Assembly (NCBI RefSeq): GCF_007556815.1
Contig: NZ_CP041743.1
Span: 2,515,001 to 2,579,000, forward strand
Direction: 5' to 3'
DNA: 64,000 bases
Source: Paraburkholderia megapolitana
Lineage (GTDB): Bacteria; Pseudomonadota; Gammaproteobacteria; Burkholderiales; Burkholderiaceae
Shown in pieces: positions 29,609-40,844 of this stretch (the stretch's first letter is position 1; the number at the start of each line of letters is the position of its first letter). The notes beneath the pieces were generated by a model. The model was not told the origin of the DNA. It made no database searches and saw only the letters and a list, made by a program, of their open reading frames with translations. The translations under genes and the position numbers were made by a program.

Positions 29609-29844
29609 AATGGGTTCGCGCCGCGGGGATGCGGCGTGTCGTCCACGATTTCCTTGTGTTTCCATTCGCGCCGTACTCCGCGTCATCGTCCCCGCGTTTC
29701 GTCTTCTACTGGCCTGTCACGGCGGCGTTCTGTCGTATGGACGAGCAGTTGAACGACGTATCGCGAAGCACGTGGCGGAGCCCTCCGGTGGCGTGGACAC
29801 ACGCGGGTTGTCGGCGAATCCCTCACCGCCACCACGGAGCAGCG

Positions 29845-30948
29845 ATGCAGACACAGATGCGCAAGATTCCCGCCACGATCGTCACGGGCTTTCTCGGCAG
29901 CGGCAAGACGACGTTGCTGCGACACATTCTTCAACATGCAGGCGGCCTGCGCATCGCGGTGATCGTCAACGAGTTCGGCGAACTCGGCATCGACGGGGAA
30001 ATTCTCAAGGGCTGCGGTATCGGTTGCGATGAAGACGGTCGCGAAACGGCGGGCCAGGTCTACGAACTCGCGAACGGATGTCTGTGTTGTACCGTTCAGG
30101 AAGAATTTCTCCCGGTCATGGAGCAGCTTCTCGAACGGCGCGAGCAGATCGATCACGTGTTGATCGAGACCTCCGGGCTCGCGTTGCCGAAGCCGCTCGT
30201 GCAGGCATTCAACTGGCCGACGATCAAGAACAGCTTCACCGTCGATGCTGTCGTCACGGTGGTCGATGGGCCGGCTGCCGCGAGCGGCCAGTTCGCGGAC
30301 AATCCGGTCGCCGTCGATGCGCAGCGCAAGGCCGATCCGAATCTCGATCACGAATCGCCGCTGCACGAACTGTTCGAAGACCAGCTTGCTTCTGCCGATC
30401 TTGTGATTCTCAACAAGACCGACCTGCTCGACGACACGCAGCAGGCCGCTGTCGAAGCGCTGCTCCGCGAAGAGATTCCTGCGCAGGTGAAGGTCGTCCG
30501 CGCGCAGAATGGTCAACTCGACCTGCACGCGTTGCTCGGGCTCGAGGCGGCGTCGGAAACCACGATTCATCTGCGGCACGATCACCACGGTTCCGCCGAC
30601 GATCCCGATCATCATCACGACGACTTCGATTCGGTGGTGGTGGAATGTACGGCGCTATCGCGCGAGGCGACGATCGTCGCGTTGCAGCAGCTCGTCGAGA
30701 CGCACACGATCTATCGTGTGAAAGGTTTCGCGGCATTGCCGGGCGCACCGATGCGGCTTGTAGTGCAGGGTGTGGGAGGGCGTTTCGACAGTTACTTCGA
30801 TCGGCGCTGGAGAGCGGACGAACAAGCGGCCGAGCCGCAGAAGAGCCGCTTCGTGCTGATCGGCGAAGATCTCGACCAGGCCGCGCTGCAGCGCGCATTC
30901 AATGCCGCGTTGAATTCTGCGGTACACGCCGAAGCACAGCGGGCCTGA
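29845..30948 (+). CDS. cobW: CobW, cobalamin-associated metallochaperone GTPase
   Basis: A 367-residue COG0523 GTPase. The P-loop GFLGSGKTT (about residues 14-22), the metal-binding CLCC motif (NGCLCCTV), and the NKTD guanine motif are present, along with a His/Asp-rich loop (HDHHGSADDPDHHHDD) that would bind metal. CobW is thought to deliver cobalt to the CobN chelatase, encoded 6 bp downstream. The ATG at 29845 (MQTQMRKIP) is chosen; the open frame continues upstream into the riboswitch leader but that part is not expected to be translated. Confidence 0.93.
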   Translation: MQTQMRKIPATIVTGFLGSGKTTLLRHILQHAGGLRIAVIVNEFGELGIDGEILKGCGIGCDEDGRETAGQVYELANGCLCCTVQEEFLPVMEQLLERREQIDHVLIETSGLALPKPLVQAFNWPTIKNSFTVDAVVTVVDGPAAASGQFADNPVAVDAQRKADPNLDHESPLHELFEDQLASADLVILNKTDLLDDTQQAAVEALLREEIPAQVKVVRAQNGQLDLHALLGLEAASETTIHLRHDHHGSADDPDHHHDDFDSVVVECTALSREATIVALQQLVETHTIYRVKGFAALPGAPMRLVVQGVGGRFDSYFDRRWRADEQAAEPQKSRFVLIGEDLDQAALQRAFNAALNSAVHAEAQRA

Positions 30949-30954
30949 CGCGCC

Positions 30955-33900
30955 ATGCATCTGCTGCGTACCACGCCGGGTGGCTTCGTCGATGACACAG
31001 CGGGTGTCGTCCGGATCGATCAGCAGCCTGCGGACATCGTGGTGCTCAGCTCGGCCGATACCACGCTGTCGTTGCTCGCGAGCGTCGTAACGCGGCTCGG
31101 TCCAGACTTCCCGAGCGTGCGGCTCGCCAACGTGACTTATCTGCGCCAACCCGCGTCGGTCGACTTCTATGTCGACGACGTGCTGCAACATGCGCGCGTC
31201 ATCGTGGTCGACCATCTGGGCGGTGAAGCCTACTGGCCGTACGGCATCGAACAGATGGTCGCGCTTGCCGCGAGGCGTGGGCAGATGCTGGCGATGTTTT
31301 CCGGCGATCTCCAGGAAGACCCGAACCTGGTCGCCAAAAGTACCGCCGATGCCGCGCTATGCGAGCGGCTATGGCGCTATCTGCGCGAAGGCGGTCCGCA
31401 GAATGCCGAGGCGTTTTTGCGCTGCATCGCCTGGCAGGCGTTCGGCTGGGGTAGCGAGCCCGCATTACCGCGACCGCTGCCGGCTGCGGCGCTGTATCAC
31501 CCGCAACATGACCTGCCGACTATCGAAGCGTGGCAAACACGCTGGCGGACGCACACTGCTGTTGATCACGCGCCGGTCGTCGCAATCCTGTTCTATCGCG
31601 CGCATCTGCAGGCGGCCAATACGGCGGTCTTCGACGCGCTGATCGAAGCGCTCGAAGCACGTCAAATGAATCCGCTGCCTATCGCGATCACTTCGCTGAA
31701 AGATGCCGTGAGTCGCGACGTAGTCCAGCAACTGTGCGAGCGCCACAACGTTGCGCTAGTGCTGAACACGACTGCGTTCGCCGCCAGCGCAATCGATGAT
31801 CCCGAACCGCTCGCGCTAGCCGGCGACGCGCCGGTAATGCAGGTCATCCTGAGCGGCGGCAACCGCGACGACTGGGTGAAGGACAACCAGGGCCTCAATT
31901 CGCGCGACATCGCGATGCACGTCGCGCTGCCCGAAGTAGACGGGCGGATCATTACGCGGGCGATCAGTTTCAAGGGGCTCGCGTATCGCTGTGCGCATAC
32001 CGAAGTGGATGTGGTCCGTTATCGGCCGGATGCGGAGCGCGTTGCGTTCGTCGCTGAATTGAGTCGACGCTGGTGCCGGCTGCGCCAGTTGCGTAACGAC
32101 GAGAAACGGCTCGCGCTGATTCTCGCCAATTACCCGCAGAGCGAAGGGCGCATCGGCAACGGTGTTGGTCTCGATACGCCGGCGTCGGTGGTCGGCATTC
32201 TTGCGATGCTGCGCGACGAAGGCTATCGCGTGAGCGACCTGCCCGTCGATGGCGCCGGGTTGATGCAACGGCTCACGCAGGGCGTTACCAACGATCCGGC
32301 CATGCGCGATCTGCGGCCCGCGTTGCAGAGTCTCGCGCTCGACGACTATCTCGCCCACTTCGCGCAACTGCCCGATGAAGTGCGCCATGCGTTGAACGCT
32401 CGCTGGGGACCGCCGGAAAGCGATCCGACGTTGCGTCGTGGGCGCTTCATGATTGCTGGCTGGCGCTGCGGGAATGTGTTCGTCGGTATCCAGCCGTCGC
32501 GCTCGCGCGGCGAAGGTGACTACGCGAGCTATCACGATGCGGACCTCGTGCCGCCGCATGCGTATCTCGCGTTCTATGTCTGGTTGCGCGCGCATTTCGG
32601 CATCGATGCGGTCGTGCACGTCGGCAAGCACGGCAACCTCGAATGGTTGCCGGGCAAGAGCGTCGCGCTGAGCGATACGTGCTGGCCCGACCTCGTGCTT
32701 GGGCCGTTGCCGCATCTGTATCCGTTCATCGTCAACGATCCGGGCGAGGGTAGCCAGGCGAAGCGACGTGCGCAGGCGGTCATCATCGATCATCTGATGC
32801 CGCCGCTCACGCGCGCGGAAAACTATGGACCGCTGCAGGATCTCGAACGGCAGGTCGACGAGTACTACGATGCGCTGATGGTCGATGCGCGGCGCGCAAA
32901 GCTGCTGCGACGCACGATACTTGCGACCATCGTCGAGCATCGGTTGCACGAGGAACTGAGCCTCGCGGAGCCGGTCGGGCAGGATGCCGAAGACGCAGTG
33001 CTGACGCGCGTCGATGCGTGGCTGTGCGAGTTGAAGGAAGCGCAGATTCGCGATGGTCTGCATACGTTCGGGCAATCGCCGGAAGGTGTGCAACGCCGCG
33101 ACACGCTGCTCGCGCTTGGGCGCTTTCCGGTCGGCGATGGGCAGGGTGCGAATGCTGGTTTGATCGATGCGCTTGCGCGCGACCTGCAGATCGATCATCT
33201 GTTCGATCCGTTAACGGCGGACTGGTCGGCGCCGTGGAGCGGGCCGCGTCCCGCGCTGCTCGAGCAGGTCAGCGATGCGCCGTGGCGGCATAACGGCGAT
33301 GCGCGTGAGCGGCTTGAGGGGCTGGCGGCTGCTTTGCTAGTGGCGTTGTGCGATGACGCAGGTGTCGGTGTAGACGCACACGCAGCTGCACCGTCCTGGC
33401 TACCGGCACCGGCCGAATTACCCCACGCCGAGCGCGTCCTCACGCGCTTGCGCAACAGCGTGCTACCGAACCTCGACGCATGCGGCGAACAGGAAATGCG
33501 TCACCTGCGGCGCGGCCTTGAAGGCCGCTTCGTGCCACCAGGCCCGAGCGGTTCGCCTTCGCGCGGCCGCCCCGATGTACTGCCCACCGGCCGCAACTTC
33601 TACTCGGTCGACACGCGCGCAGTGCCGACCCAGGCCGCGTGGTCGCTCGGGCTCAAGTCCGCGCAGCAACTGATCGAGCGGCATCTGCAGGAACACGGCG
33701 ACTATCCACGCGCGATCGGTCTCTCCGTATGGGGCACAGCGACGATGCGCACCGGCGGCGACGATATCGCCCAGGCCATGGCGCTGATCGGCGTGCGGCC
33801 GAAATGGGCCGCCGGCAGCCATCGCGTGACCGATTTCGAAATCATGCCGATCGAAGCGTTCGACCGGCCGCGCATCGACGTGACGCTGCGCGTATCGGGA

Positions 33901-34797
33901 TTCTTCCGCGATGCGTTCGCGAACGTGATGCATCTGTTCGACGCCGCGGTACAGGCCGTGGCGGAACTGGACGAACCACCCGAACTGAACCCGATCCGCG
34001 CACGCGTGATGGCCGAGCGCGACGCATGGATTGCGCGCGGGCTCGATCCAGCAACGGCGCGTCAGCGCGCCGGTTGGCGTGTGTTCAGCTCGCGTCCTGG
34101 CGCATACGGTGCGGGTTTGCAGCAGATGATCGACTCTCGTCAATGGCAGACCGACGCGGATCTCGCGAATGCTTACCAGGCGTGGGGTGGCTACGCGTAT
34201 GCGCAGAAGAGTGCCGGCGACGAAGCGCACGACGTTTTCGGCACGCGGCTCGCCGCGCTCGACGTCGTGCTGCAGAACCAGGACAACCGCGAACACGACG
34301 TGCTCGATTCGAACGACTACTACCAGTTCCAGGGCGGCATGGCCGCGGCCGTTCGACATCTGGCCGGCGTGCAGCCGCATATCTATCACGCGGATCACAG
34401 CAATCCGGCGGCACCGCGCGTGCGCACGCTGCATGAGGAGATTGCGCGCGTGATCCGCTCGCGCGTCGTGAACCCGAAGTGGCTGGACGGTGTAAAGCGC
34501 CACGGCTACAAGGGCGCGGCAGAAATCGCCGCGACCGTCGACTATCTGTACGGCTACGATGCGACGGCCCGCGTCGTCGCTGATCATCAGTACGCGCTCG
34601 TCGCCGATGCCTATCTGAACGACGCCGACACGCGCACGTTTCTCGAACAGCACAATCCACACGCACTGCATGCGATCTGCGAGCGACTGCTCGAAGCGAT
34701 GCAGCGCGGACTGTGGCAACAGCCCGGTGCGTATCGTGCGCATCTTGAAGATCATCTGCTGGCAAGCGAGCAACATATCGAAGGAATACGGTCATGA
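30955..34797 (+). CDS. cobN: Cobaltochelatase large subunit CobN
   Basis: A 1280-residue large subunit that binds hydrogenobyrinic acid a,c-diamide and cobalt. The family core HVGKHGNLEWLPGKS (about residue 560), the EGDYASYHDADLVPPH segment before it, and the C-terminal GYKGAAEIAATVDYLYGYDA block are present. Insertion needs an AAA+ ATPase pair; here that is supplied by the chlI/chlD gene whose start overlaps the cobN stop by 4 bp, not by CobS/CobT. Length is normal for CobN. Confidence 0.95.
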   Translation: MHLLRTTPGGFVDDTAGVVRIDQQPADIVVLSSADTTLSLLASVVTRLGPDFPSVRLANVTYLRQPASVDFYVDDVLQHARVIVVDHLGGEAYWPYGIEQMVALAARRGQMLAMFSGDLQEDPNLVAKSTADAALCERLWRYLREGGPQNAEAFLRCIAWQAFGWGSEPALPRPLPAAALYHPQHDLPTIEAWQTRWRTHTAVDHAPVVAILFYRAHLQAANTAVFDALIEALEARQMNPLPIAITSLKDAVSRDVVQQLCERHNVALVLNTTAFAASAIDDPEPLALAGDAPVMQVILSGGNRDDWVKDNQGLNSRDIAMHVALPEVDGRIITRAISFKGLAYRCAHTEVDVVRYRPDAERVAFVAELSRRWCRLRQLRNDEKRLALILANYPQSEGRIGNGVGLDTPASVVGILAMLRDEGYRVSDLPVDGAGLMQRLTQGVTNDPAMRDLRPALQSLALDDYLAHFAQLPDEVRHALNARWGPPESDPTLRRGRFMIAGWRCGNVFVGIQPSRSRGEGDYASYHDADLVPPHAYLAFYVWLRAHFGIDAVVHVGKHGNLEWLPGKSVALSDTCWPDLVLGPLPHLYPFIVNDPGEGSQAKRRAQAVIIDHLMPPLTRAENYGPLQDLERQVDEYYDALMVDARRAKLLRRTILATIVEHRLHEELSLAEPVGQDAEDAVLTRVDAWLCELKEAQIRDGLHTFGQSPEGVQRRDTLLALGRFPVGDGQGANAGLIDALARDLQIDHLFDPLTADWSAPWSGPRPALLEQVSDAPWRHNGDARERLEGLAAALLVALCDDAGVGVDAHAAAPSWLPAPAELPHAERVLTRLRNSVLPNLDACGEQEMRHLRRGLEGRFVPPGPSGSPSRGRPDVLPTGRNFYSVDTRAVPTQAAWSLGLKSAQQLIERHLQEHGDYPRAIGLSVWGTATMRTGGDDIAQAMALIGVRPKWAAGSHRVTDFEIMPIEAFDRPRIDVTLRVSGFFRDAFANVMHLFDAAVQAVAELDEPPELNPIRARVMAERDAWIARGLDPATARQRAGWRVFSSRPGAYGAGLQQMIDSRQWQTDADLANAYQAWGGYAYAQKSAGDEAHDVFGTRLAALDVVLQNQDNREHDVLDSNDYYQFQGGMAAAVRHLAGVQPHIYHADHSNPAAPRVRTLHEEIARVIRSRVVNPKWLDGVKRHGYKGAAEIAATVDYLYGYDATARVVADHQYALVADAYLNDADTRTFLEQHNPHALHAICERLLEAMQRGLWQQPGAYRAHLEDHLLASEQHIEGIRS

Positions 34798-35855
34798 ATG
34801 GGTCCCTGCCTGCCTTTCCGTTCACCGCGTTGATCGATCAGCAGCCGCTGCAACAGGCGCTGCTGATCGCAGCCGTCGATCCCGGCATCGGCGGTGTGCT
34901 GGTTAGCGGGCCACGCGGCACGGCGAAATCGACTGCTGCGCGCGCGCTTGCCGAATTGCTGCCCGAAGGCCAGTTCGTCACACTGCCGCTCGGCGCGAGC
35001 GAAGAGCGTCTGATCGGCACGCTCGATCTCGACGCGGTGTTGCGCGATGGTGCCGTGAAATTTTCGCCGGGGTTGCTCGCCCAGGCGCATCGCGGCGTGC
35101 TGTATGTCGACGAAATCAACCTGTTGCCCGATACGCTCGTCGACGCGTTGCTCGATGCCGCTGCGAGCGGTGTGAACACCGTCGAACGCGATGGCGTGTC
35201 GCACAGTCACGATGCGCGTTTCGTGCTGGTGGGCACGATGAATCCGGAAGAGGGCGAGTTGCGACCGCAACTGCTCGATCGTTTCGGCCTGGTGGTGGAG
35301 CTGGAGAACTGTTTCGATCCGGCCGTGCGGCAGCGCATCGTCAAGGCAAGGCTCGCCTTCGATCTCGATCCGCGGGGTTTTCACCGTGCTTATGCAACGC
35401 AGCAGTCGGATGTCGTGCAACGGATTCGCGCTGCGCGTGCTGCGTTGTCCGCACTGTCCTTCGACGATGCCGTACATGCGCTGGTAAGCCGACTCTGTAT
35501 CGAGGCGGCCGTCGATGGTCTGCGCGCCGATCTCGTGATGCTGCGCGCTGCACGCGCGCTGGCAGCGCTCGACGGTGCCGATGCGGTGACCGTGGCACAT
35601 GTCGAGCGGGTCGCGGCCTCGGTGTTGTTGCATCGACGGCATGCGGACGATGCGTCGGCAGAGGCCGGCACGTCAGAGCGAGAACCGCAAGAAGCGGCAA
35701 CCGCAAGCGCCGATCAGAAGACCGAAAACGGTCAACACAATCGGTCGCAGGCAAAATCCGATGGATCGGCTGGCGACTGGGGTTATCTACCGCCGCAGCC
35801 GGCCGGCATTGCGAACGTCAAAACCGTCGTTCCGCTCGCCGCAAAAAAACGCTAA
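34794..35855 (+). CDS. ChlI-like AAA+ ATPase, zero-frame product (cobaltochelatase small subunit)
   Basis: A 353-residue Mg-chelatase-type AAA+ ATPase. Walker A is SGPRGTAKST at residues 38-47, Walker B is VLYVDEINLL around 102-111, and sensor 1 GTMNPEEGE follows. The C-terminal 60 residues are a low-complexity Glu/Gln/Asn-rich linker, normally found between the ATPase and VWA halves of ChlD, then the protein stops at KKR just after an A7 run. The VWA half continues in the -1 frame (35850-36532). So this looks like the short product of a chlD gene: it would act as the small subunit and, after frameshifting, as the ATPase half of the medium subunit working with CobN. Confidence 0.9.
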   Translation: MNGSLPAFPFTALIDQQPLQQALLIAAVDPGIGGVLVSGPRGTAKSTAARALAELLPEGQFVTLPLGASEERLIGTLDLDAVLRDGAVKFSPGLLAQAHRGVLYVDEINLLPDTLVDALLDAAASGVNTVERDGVSHSHDARFVLVGTMNPEEGELRPQLLDRFGLVVELENCFDPAVRQRIVKARLAFDLDPRGFHRAYATQQSDVVQRIRAARAALSALSFDDAVHALVSRLCIEAAVDGLRADLVMLRAARALAALDGADAVTVAHVERVAASVLLHRRHADDASAEAGTSEREPQEAATASADQKTENGQHNRSQAKSDGSAGDWGYLPPQPAGIANVKTVVPLAAKKR

Positions 35856-35902
35856 GCCACCGGAACGGTGCCGCCGCTGATCAGTCCAGCGGTTTCCGGT
35901 GG
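35843..35902 (+). promoter_or_regulatory. Predicted -1 programmed ribosomal frameshift signal
   Basis: The heptamer A-AAA-AAA occupies 35843-35849 in the correct phase for tandem -1 slippage (zero-frame codons GCA AAA AAA CGC TAA). After a 7-nt spacer (35850-35856, containing the zero-frame stop) comes a 9-bp stem CCACCGGAA (35857-35865) with TTCCGGTGG (35894-35902), and inside it a 6-bp stem CCGCTG (35874-35879) with CAGCGG (35887-35892). The -1 frame is open from the slip through to 36532. The joined protein would be 579 residues, a normal ChlD length. Confidence 0.75.
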
Positions 35903-36532
35903 TTGCAAGGCACCCGCAGCCGCACGCGTACCCGTACTGTCGACGGCGCACCCGGCACACGCATCGCATGGCCTGCCACGCTCGCGGCGAAACGTCACAC
36001 GCCGCTGCGTGCCGACCATCTGCGCTTCGTGCGCGAAGCATCGCGAAGTGGCGAACTGCATTGCTTCGCGCTCGATTGCTCCGCTTCGATGCTTGCCGGT
36101 GCGCAACTTGCGCTTGCGAAGGGCCTACTGGTCGCGCTATTCAACCGCGCCGCACGCGAACGCGCGGAAGCGGCACTGATCTGTTTCGGTGGCACACGTG
36201 CAGATTTACGGTTCGGGCCCGCGGTGCCGCGCTGGTGGAACGAGCGCTGGCTGAAGCCGATCGGCGGCGCGGGAGGCACACCGCTCGCACTCGGTGTGCG
36301 GCGCGCGGCGCATCTGCTCGAACGCGCGGCGCGTCGCAAGCCCGCGCAGCAGCGCTGGCTCTGGGTGTTATCGGATGGCCGCAGTCGCGACTGGCCGGTG
36401 CGGCCTGCTGCCGCAGACCGGATCGTGTTCGTCGATTTCGAACACGCGGGAGTGAAGCTCGGGCGATGCGCGCAGCTCGCGCATGCCTGGGGTGCGTTAC
36501 ATCGCGTGCCCGAAGATTTGATAGAGCGCTGA
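35903..36532 (+). CDS. VWA (ChlD C-terminal) module, reached by -1 frameshift from the ChlI frame
   Basis: A von Willebrand A domain with the MIDAS motif DCSAS (ALDCSASMLAG), the PRWWNERWLKPIGGAGGTPLALG block and the LSDGRS motif, as in the C-terminal third of ChlD/BchD-type chelatase subunits. The frame is open upstream to the A7 run at 35843. The only start near its beginning is a TTG at 35903 without a clear ribosome site, and the first ATG lies inside the MIDAS motif, so independent translation would lose the domain's N-terminus. I therefore read it as the distal part of a frameshifted 579-residue medium subunit; the coordinates give the part from the TTG. Confidence 0.82.
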   Translation: MQGTRSRTRTRTVDGAPGTRIAWPATLAAKRHTPLRADHLRFVREASRSGELHCFALDCSASMLAGAQLALAKGLLVALFNRAARERAEAALICFGGTRADLRFGPAVPRWWNERWLKPIGGAGGTPLALGVRRAAHLLERAARRKPAQQRWLWVLSDGRSRDWPVRPAAADRIVFVDFEHAGVKLGRCAQLAHAWGALHRVPEDLIER

Positions 36533-36546
36533 GGTTTCGGCCCGGC

Positions 36547-37461
36547 TTACTCAGGGCTAGAGTCCCAGGGCGGTTCATCGCCAAACGCTTCGGTAAGGTA
36601 ATCGACGAACCGGCGCACTTTAAGCGGTATGCGTCGCGCGCCCGGATAAACCGCCTGGATCACCAGATCGGTGGCGCGGTACGCCGGCAGTAGCGCCACA
36701 AGGTCGCCGCGCCGCAGGTGCTCGCCAAAGACGAAGGTCGGGCCGTACACGATGCCGGCGCCGGCGAGTGCGACGGACAGAAGCATCTGCGTGTTGTTAG
36801 CAGCGATCCGCGCGGGTCCGTCGACGACATGCGCGCGGTTCTTCGAATCGAACAACGTCCAGTCTCCGGCGGACACGGCCTCGCTGAAGGCGAGCCGCGG
36901 CGCGTCGCTCAGCTCGCGTGGCGTGCGCGGCGTTCCATGTCGCTCGAGATAGGCGGGTGCCGCACATACGACCATTCGACACGGCGCAATCCGGCGTGTA
37001 ACGAGTGCTGGATCGCGCAGCCGCCCAATCCGGATCGCCACGTCGATACCGGCATCGAGCAGGTCGACATAGCGGTCGCCGAGCACCACCTCCATGTTCA
37101 CCTGCGGATGGTCCTCGAGATAGCGTGCCGTCACTTTGCCTAAATGCATCGAGCCGAACGTGACCGGTGCGGCGACGCGCAGAACGCCGCGCGCCGTACT
37201 TTGCGAATCGCTCGCTTCCCGGTTGGTGTCGTCGAACGCTTCGAGAATCTGCTTGCTGCGCTCGTAGTACGTCTGGCCCGCATCGGTCAGACTGAGGCGC
37301 CGCGTGGTTCGTTGTAGCAGCCGCGCATTCAGCTGAGCTTCGATTGCATCGACATGTTTGCCGGCCATCGCCGGCGACAGCCCGAAACGCCGCGCAGCCG
37401 CAGCAAGGCTGCCTTCCTCCACCGCGGCGACGAACACGCCAAGACTGGTCAGTCGGTCCAT
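36547..37461 (-). CDS. LysR-family regulator
   Basis: A 304-residue LysR protein of the large CrgA/DmlR-like group: helix-turn-helix SLAAAARRFGLSPAMAGKHVDAIE at about residues 18-41, then an effector domain (GVLRVAAPVTFGSMHLG, DAGIDVAIRIG). It is divergent from an alpha/beta hydrolase gene across a 111-bp gap that should hold both promoters. Neither gene has an obvious role in B12 synthesis, yet the pair sits inside the cobalamin cluster. Confidence 0.88.
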   Translation of the reverse strand: MDRLTSLGVFVAAVEEGSLAAAARRFGLSPAMAGKHVDAIEAQLNARLLQRTTRRLSLTDAGQTYYERSKQILEAFDDTNREASDSQSTARGVLRVAAPVTFGSMHLGKVTARYLEDHPQVNMEVVLGDRYVDLLDAGIDVAIRIGRLRDPALVTRRIAPCRMVVCAAPAYLERHGTPRTPRELSDAPRLAFSEAVSAGDWTLFDSKNRAHVVDGPARIAANNTQMLLSVALAGAGIVYGPTFVFGEHLRRGDLVALLPAYRATDLVIQAVYPGARRIPLKVRRFVDYLTEAFGDEPPWDSSPE

Positions 37462-38382: not shown

Positions 38383-40116
38383 CTACGGTTGGCCGTACCA
38401 GCGCGGCGTATAGACCCACTCGCGTTCGCCATCGCGAGCAAAACCACGTGTCGTCGACGATCCGACAATCACCATCGTGCGCATATCCACGTCCGATGCG
38501 CGCAGTTTCCCGAGCGTGGTGGTAGTGAGCGCACCGCCCGGTCTGCCGATATCGCGCCCAAGCACGACACGTGTAGCGGGCGCGCGATAGGCACGCACGA
38601 TATCGAGCGCGCGGTCGAGTTGCCAGGGGCGCGCATGCGAGGTCGGGTTATAGAACGCCATCACGAGGTCAGCCTCGGCCGCATGCCGCAGACGTGCCTC
38701 GATGATCGACCACGGCTTCAGGTTGTCCGATAGGGACAGCATGCAGAAGTCGTGACCGAGCGGCGCACCCGCCTGCGCGGCGGTCGCCATCGCCGCCGAT
38801 ACGCCGGGCACGATGTTGAGTTCGACCGCTGCCCAGCGTGGGTTACCGGAGGTTTCGAGCGCTTCGAGGACCGCGGCGGCCATTGCAAACACGCCCGGGT
38901 CGCCGGACGAAACGACGACGGCCGCACGACCCGCGCTCGCCAGTTCGAACGCGTGGCGCGCGCGCTGCAGTTCCTCGCGATTGTCGCTGCGATGCACCTG
39001 CTGATCGTCGCGGAACGGGCCGGCCATCTTCACGTAGGTTGCGTAGCCGAGGATGTCGGTGGCTTCGGCGAGTGCATCGCGGGCCGCGGGCACCATCAGT
39101 TCGGCACAACCTGGACCGATGCCGATCACAGTGAGCCGGCCGCGTGCCTGACCGATGTGGGCGGTGTCGACCGGTGCGGCGGCGACCGCCAGCGCGATCG
39201 GCGAACCGGAGTGGTGCAGCACATCGTGTGGAACATGCAGCGCTGTAGCGAGCAGGCGATGATGTATTTCTTCGCTTTCGTCAGTTGATCCGCTAGTACC
39301 GGGTTCAGCGAATCGCAGCGGCACATCGAGCGTGCGCGCAGCATCGGCAAACGCAGCGTCGCCGATACGATCGAGCGGTGCGAGCAGCATGGCGAGCGAC
39401 GAGCGGGCAAGCTTGTGTGCCTCAAGCGCACTAACGATGTGTTCCGCAATCGTGGCGCCGGCTGCAACATCGCTCGCTGTACCGACTGCGGCAACGACGC
39501 TGCGCGGATGAATCAACAGATCGTCAGGCCCGCCGACAGTGATAAAAGGTGTCACGCGGATCGCAAGACGCGCCGACTGCGCGCGCGGCAACGATGCATC
39601 GTCGAGCCACGATGCATTGCCTTCGATGCGCGTCGCTTCGCCCGCCAGCAGATCCGAAACGAAGCGCTTGCCCTGAGCAAGATCTGCAAGCGCGTACCCA
39701 TGTGGCGGATTTAACACGCAGGTGCCGAAGCGCAATTCGCCGCTGGTCGTGATCGCGGGGGCGATGTCGAGCATCGTCGCTATTTCGCGCGCCATCGCAT
39801 TGACGCCAGCGAGACCGCCGAGCAACGGCACGACGGCACTCCCGTCTTCCGCCAATGCGAGCACCGGCGGTTCGACGCCCTTGTTCGCGAGCAGCGGCGC
39901 CACACAGCGGATCACGATACCGGCTGCACACAGCGCAACGATCGGCGTACCGCGTGCATACAGTTCGCGCAGATGCACACCGAGCTCGGTGTAGCGGACG
40001 TCGGCCTCAACGCGCTCCGCGAGGCCATGCACCTGCGAGCCTGGATAACGAGCCTGCACGCGCCGCGCAAGCGCAAGGGCGCTCGCACCGAGTATCACGA
40101 TGGCCGGCGATGTCAT
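38383..40116 (-). CDS. cobJ: CbiG-CobJ fusion (precorrin-3B C17-methyltransferase)
   Basis: A 577-residue fusion. The first half is CbiG-like: N-terminal domain (about 1-130, [32 protein letters not shown]) and CbiG C-terminal domain (about 200-320). The second half, from [14 protein letters not shown] near residue 325, is a SAM-dependent tetrapyrrole methylase with the [13 protein letters not shown] motif, assigned to the ring-contracting C17 methylation. The ATG at 40116 overlaps the cobI stop by 4 bp and is preferred over 40125. CbiG opens the lactone in the anaerobic route, so its fusion here beside an oxygen-dependent CobG is noteworthy. Confidence 0.92.
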
Positions 40117-40844
40117 GCTTGCCATTTCTTCCCCGGCACGACGAGTAACGAGAAATACGGCGATGCCATCGGGTCGACCTCGGCGAGCGGCACGATCCGC
40201 TGATTCGCCATCGTTGCGCGTTCGACGTACAGCGCGCGCTGCGCGAGCCCAAGTTCGTCGAGAATGCGCCGCACCTTGTCGAAATTACGACCGAGCTTCA
40301 TGACGACAGCTGCATCCGCATCTGCGAGCCGCCGCCGCAATTCGTGTTCGGGCAACACACCTGACAGCACCGCCAGCGACTGGTTGCGATAGACGAGCGG
40401 CGCGCCGAGCACCGCCGCACCGCCAAGCATCGAGCAGACGCCCGGCACGACTTCGGTATCGAAGCGCGCGGCGAGCCGGTCGTGCAGATACATATACGAG
40501 CCATAAAAGAACGGATCGCCTTCGCAGATCACCGCCACGTCGCGCCCCGACTGCAGATGCGCGGCGATCACACCGGCCGCCGTGTCGTAGAAGTCCGCAA
40601 TGACCGCTTCGTACGACAGCGGCGGCTCGAGCGCTTCCGTCGTGACCGGATAGACGAGCGGCAGATGCAGTTGCGTGTCGTCGAGATGCGCTTCGACGAT
40701 TCCGTATGCGTTGCCTTTCTTGCCCTTGGCAACGAAGTACGCGACCACCGGTGCAGCCTTCAGCAGACGCAGTGCTTTCAGCGTCAATAGTTCGGGGTCG
40801 CCGGGACCGACGCCGATGCCGAAGAGACGTCCTGGCTGCGCCAT
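40113..40844 (-). CDS. cobI: Precorrin-2 C20-methyltransferase
   Basis: A 243-residue SAM-dependent methylase that adds the C20 methyl group to precorrin-2. N-terminal [16 protein letters not shown], the [20 protein letters not shown] motif near residue 105 and [13 protein letters not shown] identify CobI/CbiL. Starts directly after the cobH stop (0-bp gap) and overlaps cobJ by 4 bp. Confidence 0.94.

Follow-up and report, generated by a model that had tools for sequence, protein, structure and literature searches.

The chlID gene of Paraburkholderia megapolitana: one gene that very probably provides two cobaltochelatase subunits by a -1 frameshift

The 64,000-nucleotide stretch of Paraburkholderia megapolitana DNA analysed here (contig NZ_CP041743.1, positions 2,515,001 to 2,579,000; hereafter the window) belongs to a 7.6-Mb genome in three contigs and harbours chlID, a locus in which an open reading frame (ORF) for a ChlI-type ATPase is followed by a VWA domain in the -1 frame. 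The question raised by this locus is how two halves that share no reading frame could supply the cobaltochelatase CobN with its small and medium subunits. The answer favoured here is that chlID is a frameshifted chlD, from which -1 ribosomal frameshifting would, with high probability, yield a 353-residue small and a 579-residue medium subunit for CobN. The elements concerned are as follows.

34794-35855, + strand: ATPase ORF in the 0 frame, 353 residues with the C-terminus A-K-K-R, the putative small (ChlI/CobS-like) subunit
35843-35849, + strand: slippery heptamer A_AAA_AAA, in the phase GC[A AAA AAA] CGC TAA, which fits a -1 slip with AAA AAA in the P and A sites
35849-36532, + strand: VWA half in the -1 frame, 227 residues after the slip, with the presumed MIDAS motif DCSAS at 36074
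35853-35855, + strand: 0-frame stop codon TAA, one sense codon (CGC) past the heptamer
35855-35865 with 35894-35904, + strand: outer helix of the downstream hairpin (fold and covariation)
35873-35879 with 35887-35893, + strand: inner helix of the same hairpin (fold and covariation)

The frame junction and its slippery heptamer

The ATPase ORF matches three ChlI/BchI sequences of the PDB with E values of 1e-78 to 1e-82 and contains the motifs GPRGTAKS (residue 39), VLYVDE (102), GTMNP (147) and LDRF (161), the first three of which we take to be Walker A, Walker B and sensor 1, respectively. Past the heptamer, the -1 frame reads ACG CTA AGC and ends with the TGA at 36530-36532; the fusion, the putative medium (ChlD/CobT-like) subunit, would comprise 579 residues, 352 of them before the slip and 227 after it. 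The VWA half is recognisable by its matches to BchD (PDB 2x31, E 1.1e-9) and to TIGR02442 (77 bits), and scores 22.6 bits against Pfam VWA_2, which is under the cut-off of 27. Since a VWA_2 search of the own genome in six frames gave no match at E<=0.001, the VWA half itself was taken as the query.

Two sets of relatives were read. From a scan of named genomes the best 80 of 101 loci were taken, 79 of them usable (L067 is cut at a contig end); among these best 80, the closest named relative is Paraburkholderia acidicola, with 93% identity over the VWA half. In all 79 loci the ATPase occupies the 0 frame and the VWA half the -1 frame, the run counts exactly seven As, and one codon separates it from the stop. 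Within the same family, a VWA match was detected in 155 of 299 genomes, at E<=1e-15 in 144, and 110 of the 144 strong loci were read, own gene included. In 109 of the 110 the halves lie in -1 with A_AAA_AAR; four of these 109 carry A_AAA_AAG (A6G) and two carry eight As. Counts over 189 rows omit the sole off-pattern family locus and combine two sets that overlap in species and both contain the own gene; 155 of the 189 stretches of 70 bases are distinct.

The heptamer reads AAAAAAA in 185 of these rows and AAAAAAG in the other 4, while the -1 frame is open from the heptamer to the VWA match, and the spacing to the stop identical, in 189 of 189. A7 words occur six times in the 63.4%-GC window, both strands summed. 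Across relatives, the codon that contributes the first A specifies any of eight residues (Ala, Leu, Val, Pro, Ser, Thr, Ile, Glu), yet its third base is A in 188 of 188 rows, as against 12.2 expected from codon-family usage elsewhere in the same ORFs; related rows not being independent, these counts are not to be read as probabilities. Since the encoded residue varies while the A stays, the base, rather than the amino acid, appears to be under selection. Lysine codons elsewhere in these ORFs comprise 365 AAA and 488 AAG (both sets summed), and the second lysine codon of the slippery site is AAA in 185 rows. Natural A6G variants are found at L094, L139, L152 and L158, in two genera (g1 and g12). 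Just 15 of the 189 rows carry a Shine-Dalgarno-like core upstream of the heptamer. Judging from the pattern of substitutions, the A_AAA_AAR at the frame junction is under selection.

At the level of the order, 10 of 300 genomes scanned gave a match; five of these were new, and one of the five (G793, locus L230) is of the frameshift kind. In other families the same layout, that is, A_AAA_AAR, one codon, stop, fold and the VWA half in -1, is seen with other stem sequences in L230 of the same order and in L207, L211, L212 and L213 of the same class. In other members of the class, e.g. L204-L206, both halves lie in one frame.

The hairpin downstream of the stop codon

The hairpin consists of two stacked helices and begins at the 0-frame stop codon, with a minimum free energy of -30.5 kcal/mol (z = -3.24, 1 of 200 shuffles being as good). 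In the first set, represented by 55 distinct rows, the named structure (the two helices listed above) pairs 92.1% of cells and slid versions of it at most 58.3%, while double-sided changes number 108 versus 38.2 in shuffles, none of the 500 shuffles reaching that count. In the second set, whose 92 distinct rows were fitted to a covariance model and hence lean towards the model, 92.6% of cells are paired; double-sided changes number 194 versus 59.1 in shuffles, pairs with a double-sided change 12 versus 8.6 (4 of 500) and pair types 35 versus 26.8 (0 of 500).

The covariance model of the site has a single match in the whole own genome, namely the chlID site, and it matches the site in 100 of 100 loci searched (of 110), with an extra match on the opposite strand in L154. 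When an 8-nucleotide outer arm was examined, at least seven pairs were formed in 184 of 188 rows, compared with 69 of 188 after shuffling (one row with Ns was dropped); L047, L053, L055 and L131 reach six of eight pairs. Three loci (L124, L126 and L109) were considered as candidates for lacking the stem, which was rejected, as their 3' arm sits further downstream past a longer loop. A search of positions 34700-36600 against Rfam at a loose threshold returned no recoding element, only four weak matches far under their gathering scores. On the evidence of folding and covariation, an RNA structure with covarying helices is present downstream of the heptamer and represents a putative stimulator of slippage.

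A preliminary description of this DNA had the ATPase frame ending just past A-AAA-AAA and the VWA frame open in -1 up to 36532, which is borne out by the frames. Its stems of 9 and 6 base pairs were placed at the right coordinates and turn out to be the cores of the two helices; the alignment across relatives that it called for finds both A7 and stem kept, with compensatory changes.

CobN and the origin of its partner subunits

The genes that bear on the partnership of chlID are listed below.

30955-34797, + strand: cobN, large subunit of cobaltochelatase (TIGR02257, 1596 bits, cut-off 822)
29629-30948, + strand: cobW, upstream of cobN (TIGR02475, 488 bits, cut-off 332; match from residue 78 of the ORF)
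929175-932217 of contig C1 of the own genome: CobS-like AAA (with CbbQ_C) and CobT_C-VWA pair, away from the cob genes

The cobN stop overlaps the chlID start in the sequence ATGA (34794-34797). Among the 299 family genomes scanned, cobN exceeds its cut-off in 144 of the 144 that have a VWA match at E<=1e-15, and in eight cobN genomes the VWA match is a weak one at best. In the own genome chlID is the only ChlI-type match. Within the genus, such a match was obtained in 34 of 39 genomes, with one strong place each; five of the 34 possess a further weak match (E 1.2e-5 to 6.4e-4), and the strong match adjoins the VWA match in 15 of 15 genomes checked (of 34). Neither the own genome nor any of the 39 genus genomes showed a second strong match to ChlI. 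Like a frameshifted chlD, the locus has, to judge by these comparisons, ChlI-like ATPase and VWA halves that are joined only by a -1 shift, and cobN is present without an apparent separate small-subunit gene, though a CobS-like gene below cut-off exists. The earlier assignment of the 353-residue product as the small subunit and of the 579-residue fusion as the medium subunit acting with CobN gains support from the comparison, the cobN linkage and the lack of a second strong ChlI match.

The accompanying statement that cobS and cobT are absent holds in part: no canonical CobS or CobT exceeds the curated cut-offs in the own genome and neither is matched at chlID, yet there is the distant CobS/CobT-like pair on contig C1. 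It is surrounded by SDR, LysR, CN-hydrolase and NYN genes. The domain scores of the pair are 127 and 105 bits, with CobT_C (PF11775) over its cut-off, and in the genome search it reached 128 and 96 bits versus the TIGR01650 and TIGR01651 cut-offs of 559 and 759. A CobT-like match is present in 146 of the 299 family genomes, 86 of 152 with cobN and 60 of 147 without (152 being a tally of which 149 are readable from rows and G017, G038 and G053 are inferred); 66 cobN genomes have none. The association with cobN is mild (odds ratio 1.9, Fisher p 0.008).

Several other genomes of the scan are worth a separate mention. G204, which lacks a cobN match, encodes a near-canonical CobT (C2:433382-435148, 716 bits, cut-off 759). 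In genomes of genus g3 (e.g. G045, G138, G145) weak cobN matches (E ~1e-83), perhaps representing a CobN paralogue, were detected, and neither an over-cut-off cobN nor a VWA half was found. In G273 the cobN match (C1:804562-808339) is in two pieces, covering query residues 1-717 and 713-1225, with open frames of 744 and 579 residues.

As for the rest of the window, cobG, cobH, cobI, cobJ, cobM, cobB, bluB and a cobA-type adenosyltransferase gene all exceed curated cut-offs; CobG is a marker of the aerobic route. The CobJ methyltransferase forms the C-terminal part of a 580-residue protein (38383-40125, - strand), whose first ~325 residues received no NCBIfam name at E<=1e-20 and are presumably CbiG-like.

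A number of points weigh against the frameshifting proposed here from sequence and comparison. In the first set, pairs with a double-sided change (7 versus 6.3, 186 of 500 shuffles as high) and further pair types (25 versus 23.0, 72 of 500 as high) hardly exceed their shuffles, and the covariation shuffles do not preserve relatedness. RNAalifold, unaided, kept the outer helix only, and the inner helix, having been dropped, was scored as part of the named structure. With the halves scored apart against TIGR02442 (putative cobaltochelatase), the ATPase obtains 397 and the VWA half 77 bits, the cut-off for the whole protein being 779. The off-pattern family locus, L194 of genome G266, has six As at the site and, upstream of it, another break in the frame, a pattern of sequencing error or decay. 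The CobS/CobT-like pair could in principle serve CobN. Finally, the A7 cassette described in passages of Antonov 2013 (PMC3711429) reached no more than 10% in E. coli.

Were RNA polymerase to add an A on the A7 run, part of the mRNAs would encode the fusion in a single frame. Such transcriptional slippage would agree with the seven As present in 185 of 189 rows, and also with the three genes of the published cluster tested in E. coli, whose output is given in passages of the same paper as growing with the A-run, 10, 40 and 63% for 7, 9 and 11 As (PMC3711429). The A6G variants at L094, L139, L152 and L158, however, keep A_AAA_AAR while breaking the A7 run, and the hairpin directly past the stop is maintained by compensatory changes. 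A downstream RNA fold is not yet formed while the polymerase crosses the run. Hence the A6G rows, together with the fold, argue against polymerase slippage as the main route, and as such it seems very unlikely, although it may make a minor contribution. The A6G variants would be useful in separating ribosomal from transcriptional slippage.

It is even less probable that CobN is served by the pair on contig C1 and that chlID does something else. The pair does possess CobS- and CobT-type domains, and CobT-like matches are mildly commoner in genomes with cobN; its scores, however, are far under the cut-offs, it lies away from the cob genes, 66 cobN genomes manage without any CobT-like match, and at E<=1e-15 the VWA half never occurs without cobN (144 of 144).

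Less probable still is an unfused VWA protein whose translation starts independently or by coupling. The 0-frame stop is indeed near the downstream frame, the TTG at 35903 could start a 209-residue ORF, and some experiments, in passages that do not name the cluster, showed downstream initiation beside frameshifting (PMC3711429). Nevertheless, there is no conserved start codon: the commonest start position is shared by 34 of 187 rows, 16 of 187 have none within 70 codons, and a Shine-Dalgarno-like motif precedes the first candidate start in 8 of 187, which agrees with the preliminary remark that the VWA half has no good start of its own. Separate initiation would also leave the fixed A_AAA_AAR unexplained. 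Homopolymer runs are error-prone, yet a sequencing error or a decayed gene is practically negligible as an explanation: the identical break recurs in all 79 named and in 109 of the 110 family loci, or 188 of 189 (own gene counted, some species present in both sets), and third base and helices are constrained as well.

Proposed mechanism, known systems and significance

On the comparative evidence, chlID very probably makes two proteins by a -1 slip at A7; we infer the ribosomal nature of the slip, its efficiency, the assembly of the products and cobalt as the metal. Translation of chlID would probably be coupled to that of cobN through the ATGA overlap. A share of the ribosomes would stop right past A_AAA_AAA and release the 353-residue ATPase as the small subunit, whereas the remaining ones, held by the hairpin, would shift one base backwards, two tRNA-Lys(UUU) sitting on A_AAA_AAA, and continue into the VWA domain, giving the 579-residue medium subunit. 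As both products would bear the same AAA+ module with its motifs intact, the efficiency of slippage would set their ratio in the motor driving CobN.

Among the loci that hold the 49 tRNA places of the own genome there are one tRNA-Lys(CUU) and one tRNA-Lys(UUU); the tRNA list is incomplete, since it contains no tRNA-Ile. If tRNA-Lys(CUU) takes AAG, A_AAA_AAA would be the natural choice in this family, as far as the tRNAs of the own genome are a guide. We tentatively suggest, as a possibility somewhat short of even chances, that A_AAA_AAA is kept over the A_AAA_AAG favoured in E. coli because tRNA-Lys(CUU) takes AAG and cannot re-pair on AAA, and that slippage determines the composition of a AAA+ ring around CobN in which every member is active. 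If true, the element would be tuned to the tRNA set of its host, and assays in E. coli would misjudge its slippage.

Frameshifted chlD genes of cobalamin producers were reportedly treated by Antonov in 2020. The idea of frameshifting at such genes is already known, Burkholderia included. Passages of Antonov 2013 (PMC3711429) present, for six genera including Burkholderia, a cluster of 23 magnesium-chelatase genes that use a -1 frameshift, and passages of Kuznetsov 2022 (PMC9227772) derive both Co-chelatase subunits from one chlD; the preliminary description was correct in recalling programmed chlD frameshifting for cobalt chelatase as already described. Archaeal cases are repeated in a passage of PMC8211752. 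The published genes resemble chlID in having a ChlI-like ATPase followed, across a -1 shift at an A-run, by a second half, as well as in the downstream structure, and differ in nothing essential; the passages concerned do not name P. megapolitana. A literature search combining Burkholderia, chlD and frameshift found no paper on this particular gene. In the Mg-chelatase frameshift gene of Pseudomonas protegens, as treated in passages of Atkins 2016 (PMC5009743), A_AAA_AAR is likewise under purifying selection and TAG is directly followed by a GC-rich stem; the stem sequence is different, conservation of the structure at the sequence level is described as not strong, and a possible triplex has been raised.

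The dnaX gene of E. coli (tau/gamma) also provides two subunits that share one AAA+ module by -1 slippage on A_AAA_AAR. It has a downstream hairpin and an upstream Shine-Dalgarno-like stimulator, and its longer product is the unshifted one. In contrast to dnaX, which slips on A_AAA_AAG, the chlID rows have A_AAA_AAA (185 of 189) and rarely the upstream core (15 of 189). The CobNST cobaltochelatase, too, combines a large CobN with an AAA+ small and a VWA-bearing medium subunit; in the chlID system, however, the small and medium parts are of the ChlI/ChlD type and come from one gene, not from cobS and cobT.

What the present analysis adds is the covariation in Burkholderiaceae, the third-base test and the two tRNA-Lys genes. 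The A6G variants, together with the latter, offer a ready test of the adaptation of a slippery site to the tRNA set of the host. chlID is a widely conserved case in which a single bacterial gene very likely supplies two subunits of an enzyme at a set ratio; annotation can split such a gene in two. It explains how an aerobic cobaltochelatase could be complete in species that have cobN but lack a separate chlI as well as canonical cobS and cobT.

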